The notes under the pieces were generated by a model, which made no database searches, was not told the DNA's origin, and worked only from the letters and a program-made list of their open reading frames with translations. A stretch of 34,003 bases of DNA from Stenoxybacter acetivorans DSM 19021. GTDB lineage: Bacteria; Pseudomonadota; Gammaproteobacteria; Burkholderiales; Neisseriaceae. Each line of letters begins with the position of its first letter. Positions within the stretch are counted from its first letter, which is position 1. Shown here one piece after another: positions 8,383 to 10,119 of this stretch. The stretch covers positions 573 through 34,575 of the forward strand of contig NZ_JQKE01000026.1 of the NCBI RefSeq assembly GCF_000745895.1. The letters run 5' to 3'. Position numbers and translations under genes: made by a program.

Positions 8383-9585
8383 ATGATCATCACTCGGATA
8401 AAAATTGATAATCTGTATTCTTTTCAAAATACAGAAATTGATTTCACCTATAGCAGAAAAAAAACAAACAGCACCATTGATGGTGAATTTTTGGATTTTG
8501 CACCTAAGTTTTATTTTAAAAAAGTTTGCATTATTTCAGGAACAAATGCCAGTGGTAAAACGGCATTGGGTAAGGTATTGTGTTATTTTTTGAATTTCAT
8601 AACAGGAAAAAACAATACCATTTCTGATATTGTCTCAGGGGTTTTCGATAAAGAGAGAAATGCTTTATTGGAACTGGATTTTGTTACACTTTCTGATCAA
8701 AAAATTCATCGAGTTAAGATTGAGGTTGCGAGTAATAGCGTAAACTCATTGAAAACCTTATTCTATGTTGCCACAAAAATAAATGGAAATGACAGCGCAG
8801 AAAAGGCAAAGCAAAAACTGAAAGATATTGAAGAAAAACAAAAAGGCGGGACATACATTAATAGTGAACAAACTTCTCTTGATGAAGTATATGAGCAACT
8901 TATAAATAAAAATATTCAACAAAATTGGTATTTTTTAGTTTCTGAAAATGAAACTGGTAGTTCATCTGGAAAAATAAATGAATTTTCTGTTGATTTATTA
9001 GGAAAATTATTGAAAATATTTGATCCGTCAGTTAGTAAGGTAAACCCTATTTTTAAAGAAGTTGAAGTTAATGGGAAGATTATTAGACTCAATGAGGGTT
9101 GCGAAGTTATTTTTGCCAATGGTGATAAAGCTAAAATTGATGATGATTGTCAAGTAATGACTGATCCTAATCGGTTTTCAAAAGGTACTTTTGAAATATT
9201 GCAAGTTGCTGGTTTTATTAACCGCATCATGAATAGTTCTGATTCTAAAGTTCCTGATGAATATCAAATTGGTACTTTTTTTCTGGACGAAAAAATGGCA
9301 TACAGTAATTCTCATTTAGAGCAAGCTGTGGTTACTTTGATTATCAGTAAATTGGGTAGGTACGCACAGTTTTTCTACACCACTCACAATTACGATATTT
9401 TGGATTTAAATTTACCTGTCCATAGTTTTTTGTTTATGAAAAAAGATATGCATAATACAGAAATTATTCATCCTGATCATACGTTTCAAAAGAACGACAG
9501 AAAATTACTTAACTATGTTAAAAATGATTATTTTCATACTATCCCCGACATGGAAATACTCGATGAATTAATCTTTGGAGAGTGA
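8383..9585 (+). CDS. SMC/OLD-type AAA (ABC-like) ATPase of a two-gene cassette
   Basis: This 400-residue protein resembles the AAA_15/AAA_21 ATPases of defence systems such as OLD, PARIS AriA and RloA. Visible in order: N-terminal strand MIITRIKIDNLYSF, Walker A GTNASGKT (53-60), a charged helical insert with coiled-coil character (about 135-155), a signature-like SKGT (267-270 region), Walker B with catalytic acid FFLDE (D302-E303), and a switch histidine in TTHN (H335). There is no transmembrane segment and no TOPRIM domain within this chain; the next gene supplies a candidate. The DNA is markedly AT-rich (only 12 of 60 bases G/C at 8881-8940) and lacks uptake sequences, which suggests horizontal gain. 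The exact family is not assigned. Confidence 0.85.
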   Translation: MIITRIKIDNLYSFQNTEIDFTYSRKKTNSTIDGEFLDFAPKFYFKKVCIISGTNASGKTALGKVLCYFLNFITGKNNTISDIVSGVFDKERNALLELDFVTLSDQKIHRVKIEVASNSVNSLKTLFYVATKINGNDSAEKAKQKLKDIEEKQKGGTYINSEQTSLDEVYEQLINKNIQQNWYFLVSENETGSSSGKINEFSVDLLGKLLKIFDPSVSKVNPIFKEVEVNGKIIRLNEGCEVIFANGDKAKIDDDCQVMTDPNRFSKGTFEILQVAGFINRIMNSSDSKVPDEYQIGTFFLDEKMAYSNSHLEQAVVTLIISKLGRYAQFFYTTHNYDILDLNLPVHSFLFMKKDMHNTEIIHPDHTFQKNDRKLLNYVKNDYFHTIPDMEILDELIFGE

Positions 9586-9588
9586 TAA

Positions 9589-10119
9589 ATGGCAACGATT
9601 ATTCTTGTGGAGGGTGAAACAGAGCAAGCATTTTGGAAAGTATTTTATCAAGGGCAAACGAAAAAAATTAATTTATGGGATTGTAAAGAAAAAGACATTA
9701 ATAATATTGCCCTTTCTGTAAAGAATAATGATGAACTTATCATTATTTTTGATACTGATGTAACTGATAATTACGCAAGATTTTTGAGTAATTTAAAATC
9801 TATTAGGCAGAAAATTAGTGGGAATCGTGTTTTTTTATTGCAGCAGAATAAAAACTTTGAAGATGAATTGTGTAAGGCTTGTAATTGTAAACAAGATAAA
9901 TTAAATCAGCATTTTAATCATGCCCGTAGTGTAGGAAAATTTAAATCTGAATTTATCGAACATTTTAAAAATAAAAAATTGAGAGAGAAATTGGAAGAAT
10001 TATCTATTGATCTTGGAAAAATGTGGGTAGCTGAGTTGATTGAATGTTTAAATTTGGAAGAAGTGAAAAAAATCAAAATAGATGGACAACACAAAAAAAT
10101 TAAAGCGCTTAAAAGATGA
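9589..10119 (+). CDS. Small TOPRIM-like protein paired with the ATPase
   Basis: This 176-residue protein starts 3 bp after the ATPase stop. Its layout fits a minimal TOPRIM fold: strand plus glutamate in ILVEGETEQAF (E8 and E10), then a D-x-D in IIIFDTDVTD (D55, D57), then NFEDEL (89-94), which resembles the conserved segment after the acidic motif in RloB-like and OLD-like proteins. The C-terminal 60 residues are lysine- and glutamate-rich and helical. TOPRIM proteins paired with such ATPases often act as nucleases; that role is inference here. It is shorter than PARIS AriB. Its stop codon overlaps the start of the following ABC-F gene in ATGA. Composition is AT-rich like its partner. Confidence 0.75.
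   Translation: MATIILVEGETEQAFWKVFYQGQTKKINLWDCKEKDINNIALSVKNNDELIIIFDTDVTDNYARFLSNLKSIRQKISGNRVFLLQQNKNFEDELCKACNCKQDKLNQHFNHARSVGKFKSEFIEHFKNKKLREKLEELSIDLGKMWVAELIECLNLEEVKKIKIDGQHKKIKALKR

Follow-up and report, generated by a model that had tools for sequence, protein, structure and literature searches.

A two-gene ATPase-TOPRIM cassette of Stenoxybacter acetivorans, member of a mobile split OLD-like family and most likely anti-phage

We consider a pair of adjacent genes in a 34,003-nucleotide stretch of the Stenoxybacter acetivorans DSM 19021 genome (contig NZ_JQKE01000026.1, positions 573 to 34,575; here called the window), in which an ATPase gene is followed, 3 bp after its stop codon, by the open reading frame of a small protein with TOPRIM-type residues. 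An earlier note, made from the letters of the window alone, had described this two-gene layout and proposed an ATPase-TOPRIM defence cassette; both reading frames are present as described (Table 1). We find that the cassette is an intact member of a mobile family of split OLD-like ATPase-nuclease pairs, which stands closest to AbiL/RloAB and PARIS, belongs to neither, and is most likely directed against phages. For its mode of action we regard it as probable that the two genes make up an immune cassette in which the ATPase restrains the TOPRIM nuclease until a phage trigger sets it free. No closely fitting family for the pair is found in PADLOC-DB 2.0.0, Pfam or NCBIfam; the close fits are two PHROG families of unknown function, phrog_5836 for the ATPase (E-value, E, of 2.3e-59) and phrog_10204 for its partner (E 2.3e-28).

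The first gene encodes a Rad50/PtuA-like ABC ATPase. Its AlphaFold2 (AF2) model, built with a 50-row alignment, has a predicted local distance difference test score (pLDDT) of 89.0 and is closest to Rad50 (Z 20.8, 277 residues, 3.4 Å by VIA-align), with PtuA nearly equal (Z 18.9, 299 residues, 5.0 Å). A sequence search of solved structures with the same 50 rows reaches Rad50 at 9.6e-6, while the corresponding search with the single ATPase or the single TOPRIM protein gives nothing firm. Among family models, the protein is matched by PADLOC AbiLi (E 1.4e-24), by Pfam AAA_23 just under the cut-off (E 1.3e-5) and by PADLOC AriA (1.6e-4). The alignment combines 48 of 63 non-redundant family ATPases with the window protein and one identical copy. 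Across these rows the Walker A, SKGT, D302-E303 and H335 motifs picked out in the earlier note are conserved, and S266, G268, T269, D302, E303 and H335 are invariant.

The question is then whether the partner has a TOPRIM fold. In the topology of TOPRIM domains a glutamate follows strand 1 and a pair of aspartates lies at the end of strand 3, and we judge the partner model by this arrangement. According to the AF2 model (pLDDT 91.5, 49-row alignment), the chain runs through strand 3-7, helix 10-19, strand 23-26, helix 34-43, strand 49-55, helix 62-75, strand 80-86 and helix 90-98, with E8 directly behind strand 1 and D55/D57 where strand 3 ends. A profile comparison (hhalign) of the partner family gives E 9.1e-5 against a small OLD profile of 8 OLD TOPRIM sequences, over 61 columns, then 0.029 against 3 RloB and 0.63 against 20 response regulators. 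As for named models, the sole Pfam match of the window partner at E <= 10 is OLD-like_TOPRIM (E 0.011, under the cut-off), PADLOC AbiLii matches it at E 5.4e-5 (22 bits), and RefSeq calls its E. coli relatives 'TOPRIM nucleotidyl transferase/hydrolase domain-containing'. Among the 49 aligned partners, one is matched by the NCBIfam retron Eco8 effector at 1.7e-5. A solved-structure search with nine partner rows gives OT3 at 0.0019 and Retron Eco8 OLD at 0.15, neither of which recurs with 49 rows, and in BFVD the model finds four DnaG-type or TOPRIM-named rows, all weak (E 0.12-0.15).

Several results speak against this assignment. Foldseek with the partner model returns no match at E <= 0.001 in the PDB or BFVD, and its top rows are other Rossmann-like folds; the top 50 PDB entries by Foldseek and by VIA-align contain no TOPRIM or OLD entry. 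The hhalign control is weak, as OLD TOPRIM against RloB reaches only E 0.76. Matches of single partners to Pfam at E <= 0.01 are few among the 49: DUF3226 in 4, OLD-like_TOPRIM_1 in 2, RloB in 2, Toprim in 1 and OLD-like_TOPRIM in 1. The earlier note had let its proposal hinge on a TOPRIM fold in this protein; topology and acidic residues are as expected for one, although the structure searches do not bring TOPRIM proteins to the top.

The active-site residues carry more of the argument. In a 49-row alignment (the window protein and the 48 of 54 non-redundant members that pass length and profile thresholds; the omitted ones are three near-copies plus L073, L092 and L100, which are damaged or short), M1, E8, G9, E12, D55, D57, Q86, E91, E93 and K119 are invariant, so that all three acidic residues named in the earlier note, E8 and D55-x-D57, are upheld. 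An initial set of nine partners includes one phage protein (NatCom_17901) with D instead of E12. In Bp OLD, metal A is bound by E400, D455 and D457 and metal B by E404, T506 and E508, with K562 as the lysine (PMC6755086). The partner has the OLD-type set of predicted metal ligands in the same order and with the same spacing inside each motif, ExxxE (E8/E12), DxD (D55/D57), a second acidic site (E91/E93) and a lysine (K119), where E91 would occupy the position of T506 and the lysine lies on a later helix. Beyond D57 the matching is by inference: because the hhalign test is weak and the OLD alignment covers 61 columns, the equivalence of E91, E93 and K119 rests on order and secondary structure. 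Of all single observations, this parallel with Bp OLD speaks most strongly for a working nuclease, an activity that we predict from sequence.

The partner is not unusually small, as the earlier note had thought. With 176 residues it is at the norm of the family, in which the partners of 65 pairs, among the matches listed, have a median length of 172 residues (range 87-201). Shorter TOPRIM genes of 118 and 87 residues adjoin intact ATPases at two loci (L100 7156-7512 and L073 7091-7354), and their products still align to the profile at either end, as if in-frame stretches had been lost from the interior.

Table 1. Features of the cassette, in window coordinates
Feature	Coordinates	Strand	Remarks
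ATPase gene	8383..9585	+	400 aa; ATPase of ABC/SMC-head type, proposed as sensor and restraint
Walker A region, residues 53-60 GTNASGKT	8539..8562	+	G53, N55, G58, K59 invariant in 50 rows; A56, T60 at least 90%
ABC signature-like motif, residues 266-269 SKGT	9178..9189	+	S266, G268, T269 invariant in 50 rows
Walker B end, D302-E303	9286..9291	+	both invariant in 50 rows
Switch TTHN, residues 333-336	9379..9390	+	all 50 rows agree at T333, H335, N336; T334 conserved in at least 90%
TOPRIM gene	9589..10119	+	176 aa; OLD-like TOPRIM protein, small and stand-alone, proposed as the nuclease effector
TOPRIM Glu motif E8-x3-E12	9610..9624	+	invariant in 49 rows; spacing equals Bp OLD E400/E404
TOPRIM D55-x-D57	9751..9759	+	invariant in 49 rows; compare Bp OLD D455/D457
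E91-x-E93, proposed second-metal ligands	9859..9867	+	invariant in 49 rows; helix start after strand 4; compare Bp OLD T506-x-E508
K119, proposed catalytic lysine	9943..9945	+	invariant in 49 rows; compare Bp OLD K562
ATGA overlap	10116..10119	+	TOPRIM-gene stop / downstream ABC-F-type gene start; read from sequence

We turn to the distribution of the pair. Among 83 genomes of the bacterial family (Neisseriaceae), 5 carry the ATPase, as do 3 of 369 in the class sample, the Stenoxybacter genome being counted in both. The TOPRIM profile matches the same 5 and the same 3 genomes, side by side with the ATPase; the single TOPRIM protein, used first to scan genome contigs, has no match. In one of the class genomes (G191) both genes are present as decayed remnants only. 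A housekeeping family kept at this locus by all relatives, which the earlier note named as the finding that would overturn its proposal, is not what these counts describe. The upstream methyltransferase-type gene is matched in 79 of the 83 family genomes (three of the matches weak and partial), and of 30 loci compared around it, the 29 other than that of the window all lack the cassette within 1.5 kb. The ATPase-TOPRIM pair is thus an accessory insertion, present in few genomes of family and class and absent from 29 of 29 other upstream-gene loci. Within 1.5 kb, the same 29 loci also lack a close match to the downstream gene, in a search that covered no congeneric genome, and the exact insertion site is therefore not demonstrable.

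Composition sets the insertion apart as well. The cassette has a GC content of 29.6%, while 576 overlapping segments of the same length elsewhere in the 34 kb have a mean of 46.9% (sd 3.1, minimum 38.8%), and GC at third codon positions (GC3) is 0.25 and 0.22 in its two genes against 0.49-0.59 in four neighbours; the AT-rich character, unlike both sides, on which the earlier note remarked is borne out. In the ATPase tree the window protein groups with a protein of Marinicella (Gammaproteobacteria) at 99/87 support, apart from the other Neisseriaceae protein included (L083), which suggests horizontal transfer of the ATPase gene; the cassette as a whole was probably acquired horizontally. Against such a history, the repeat search around the cassette finds short repeats only and no flanking repeat of the mobile-element type.

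Over all searches the family has at least 57 loci in genome contigs and 34 in viral contigs, and the database records place them in Pseudomonadota, Bacillota, Fusobacteriota, Spirochaetota, Verrucomicrobiota and Riflebacteria, among others. The two genes travel together: in 65 two-gene loci that pass simple thresholds, among the matches listed, the intergenic gap has a median of 2 bp. Searching the viral contigs by TOPRIM gives 23 loci, of which 20 lie on contigs also found by ATPase and the remaining 3 end 24 bases upstream at a contig end; hence there is no orphan TOPRIM gene among the viral loci.

Mobile carriage is direct in several cases. Relatives with the small partner directly downstream are found in Acinetobacter phage Ab105-3phi, in a mobilizable Acinetobacter plasmid and in a gut phage. 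The viral relative L054 has matches of 79% identity in 6 of 5,426 E. coli genomes, two of the six being of one strain; the three E. coli relatives inspected are in P2-like prophages, where the pair has the portal gene on one side and the replication gene on the other. Twelve of the 34 viral loci lie between P2 gpQ and gpA (several are near-copies of each other, and at L060 only the gpQ end is on the contig), as does none of the 57 genome-contig loci among the matches listed. This interval is a hotspot of anti-phage genes and in P2 itself holds old and tin (PMC9122126).

Defence is the most likely role of the cassette because its spread is patchy, phages and a plasmid carry it, relatives occupy the P2 old/tin interval, and AbiLi and AbiLii are the nearest PADLOC models. 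Of the earlier proposal, the ATPase and the TOPRIM-type nuclease are well supported, and its defence part is judged the likeliest role from distribution, mobility and nearest models. It counts against the defence reading that our literature search found no phage assay and no defence or toxicity result for this family.

The mechanism that we propose runs as follows. The ATPase would oligomerise, bind the small TOPRIM protein and keep it inactive. The TOPRIM protein would be a compact nuclease with a complete two-metal residue set. By analogy with PARIS and AbiL, a phage-derived trigger would change the nucleotide state of the ATPase and free or activate the TOPRIM protein, whose cutting of nucleic acid would then halt the growth of the phage and, in most cases, that of the cell as well. 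PARIS is triggered by a phage anti-restriction protein and cleaves tRNA. Because its stand-alone TOPRIM protein, AriB, is a tRNase, RNA, perhaps tRNA, is by analogy slightly favoured over DNA as the substrate here.

Gene decay bears on the restraint step. Among the 91 loci of the matches listed, both genes are intact in 63; the ATPase is intact with the TOPRIM gene damaged (10) or missing (5) in 15, and the reverse holds in 2, with neither gene intact in 3 and contig ends cutting 8. The thresholds of this count are our own, some of the five 'missing' TOPRIM genes leave remnants, one locus of the reverse class (L130) may be cut by a contig end, and one with neither gene intact (L134) is so cut. 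L087 (7221-7762), counted among the contig-end-cut loci, has an intact ATPase and a broken TOPRIM frame, after which comes a transposase-like frame on the opposite strand. Being double the length of the TOPRIM gene, the ATPase gene is expected to take more chance hits. Even so, the 15:2 asymmetry is a hint of restraint and no more, because the loci were found through the ATPase and many come from metagenome assemblies. Two reports also weigh against restraint: in PARIS, deleting either gene is non-toxic (PMC9122126), and lactococcal AbiLi and AbiLii are not toxic in E. coli (PMC3985639). The restraint model is therefore not a general one.

If the TOPRIM protein were a toxin and the ATPase its antitoxin, the pair could be a plain addiction module, kept for the stability of mobile elements and not for defence. 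The decay asymmetry would suit such a module, as would carriage by a mobilizable plasmid, the toxicity-neutralisation assays that NetFlax reports for the TOPRIM_OLD(D60):AAA pair of S. agalactiae and for the pair of C. algidicarnis (D44, called RloB-like) (PMC10440598), and the toxicity of F. nucleatum AbiLii in E. coli (PMC3985639). The same paper, however, has F. nucleatum AbiLi not neutralising AbiLii, and lactococcal AbiLii is non-toxic; the pair here stands alone on a chromosome, and its relatives occupy a P2 interval known for defence genes. We consider a plain toxin-antitoxin module unlikely, and an immune cassette with a restrained nuclease remains our preferred reading.

Another possibility is that the pair is an AbiL/RloAB system (AbiLi plus AbiLii) that has diverged in this lineage. 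The likeness is real: two adjacent genes stand in the same order, ATPase then TOPRIM-like protein, AbiLi is the best PADLOC model for the window ATPase and matches 50 of 50 family ATPases (best 2.4e-30), and AbiLii matches 10 of 49 partners, that of the window included, at E <= 0.001. An assignment to AbiL from the PADLOC match alone was dropped, as these models give much higher scores to RloAB loci of the same bacterial family. On the window ATPase the AbiLi model scores 85 bits in the protein scan and 88 bits in the genome search, whereas in the same 83 family genomes eight loci score 299-360 bits. Seven of these eight have a complete ATPase followed by a partner of 212-233 residues (the eighth is at a contig end), and all 7 partners match Pfam RloB (137-161 bits) and score 91-112 bits with PADLOC AbiLii, against 22 bits for the 176-residue window partner, which has no Pfam RloB match. 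In the reverse direction, RloA-type loci reach 15-43 bits with the family ATPase profile, for which the family median is 410, and the family TOPRIM profile matches no RloB in 10 loci. A tree of the 50 family ATPases with 7 RloA proteins splits into separate clades at 100/100 support, the lactococcal AbiL sequences lying outside its sampling. A diverged AbiL system is accordingly quite improbable; on the sequence comparisons, AbiLi/RloA is the nearest lineage by ATPase, and the cassette is a lineage of its own.

Finally, a DNA-repair or housekeeping ATPase-nuclease pair, suggested by the Rad50 structures as the closest folds of the ATPase, is very improbable and is rejected on a distribution of 5 of 83 family and 3 of 369 class genomes (one decayed), together with the low GC, the phage and plasmid carriage and the absence of the cassette from the 29 other upstream-gene loci.

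Going further than the immune cassette preferred above, and tentatively, since we hold it to be somewhat less than an even chance, the pair may represent an unnamed stand-alone immune family of about six phyla: an OLD-type nuclease of about 170 residues, silenced by its own Rad50-like ATPase in a toxin-antitoxin-like switch that would fire on infection, and used by P2-like and other phages against their rivals. The traits of the family (a stand-alone predicted nuclease of 170 residues, an ATPase whose fold class is known, and relatives in P2-like prophages of E. coli) make it a compact and easy test case for how an ATPase restrains a nuclease and for RNA versus DNA cutting. It would also supply a model for defence-finding tools.

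As for the surroundings, the cassette is flanked, as judged by eye, by the methyltransferase-type gene upstream and by a gene downstream that we take to be of ABC-F type; the neighbours further out presumably are ordinary cell-division, transport and haem genes (ftsW, murG, hemC, hemE and others). The right edge of the low-GC cassette coincides with the ATGA overlap, and because the start of the ABC-F-type gene lies inside the TOPRIM stop, the cassette may now affect the translation of that gene. A promoter scan gives 6 promoter-like sites against 9.5 in shuffles, none of them on the plus strand. Further ATPases of the kind are seen in three places. The Stenoxybacter genome has another one matching the AbiLi model (G000:C59:156-1271; 7.9e-20; open frame of 434 residues). 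At L116 (4690-5841 and 6001-7603) a complete pair has, in tandem immediately upstream, a diverged second ATPase from the same superfamily, and at L123 (11448-12734) an ATPase that is RloA-like by motif follows a complete pair after about 4 kb, perhaps as part of a defence cluster.

We close with the known systems. Pairs of an ATPase and a TOPRIM protein are a recurring defence design in which the TOPRIM functions are largely unknown (PMC12409363), and the design itself is not new. The earlier note could not place the pair in a named system, and this agrees with our comparison: the partner is neither of the RloB/AbiLii kind that marks RloAB and AbiL nor a DUF4435 protein as in PARIS. Our literature search found no paper naming the family, with the supplements (Rousset 2022 Table S5, NetFlax datasets) outside that search. 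Gabija is rejected, as by eye the flanking genes are of methyltransferase and ABC-F type and no GajB helicase is present. Septu is rejected too, as there is no PtuB HNH partner: the only Pfam match of the window partner is OLD-like_TOPRIM, and no HNH family is among the matches of the 49 partners.

PARIS shares with the cassette an ATPase (AriA) and a TOPRIM protein (AriB) on separate genes, and AriB is reported to be a two-metal TOPRIM nuclease (PMC12409363; PMC9122126). AriB, however, is a DUF4435 protein, and DUF4435 is absent from the eight Pfam families matched by the 49 partners (E <= 0.01); a search for DUF4435 loci, made for comparison, gave them in 2 of 114 genomes only. Of the 50 ATPases, 48, 33 and 19 are matched by three AriA models, with a best E of 3.6e-11 against 2.4e-30 for AbiLi, and the other PADLOC models (mad3 with 46, PtuA with up to 18) also have weaker best scores than AbiLi. 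NetFlax describes AAA ATPases of node D29 that adjoin separate OLD_TOPRIM toxins (PMC10440598), a likeness that we draw from the description and not from sequence, and it may already hold relatives of the family under another node (D60 or M70 considered). The OLD proteins of classes 1-3 (P2 Old, GajA, retron OLD) differ in being one polypeptide, where the cassette has two genes and the two profiles never match within a single open segment at any tabulated locus; its neighbours, judged by eye, include no helicase or retron gene. With these OLD systems the family shares the ATPase-TOPRIM partnership, the order and spacing of the TOPRIM active-site residues and, in its phage-borne relatives, the very P2 interval of old and tin.

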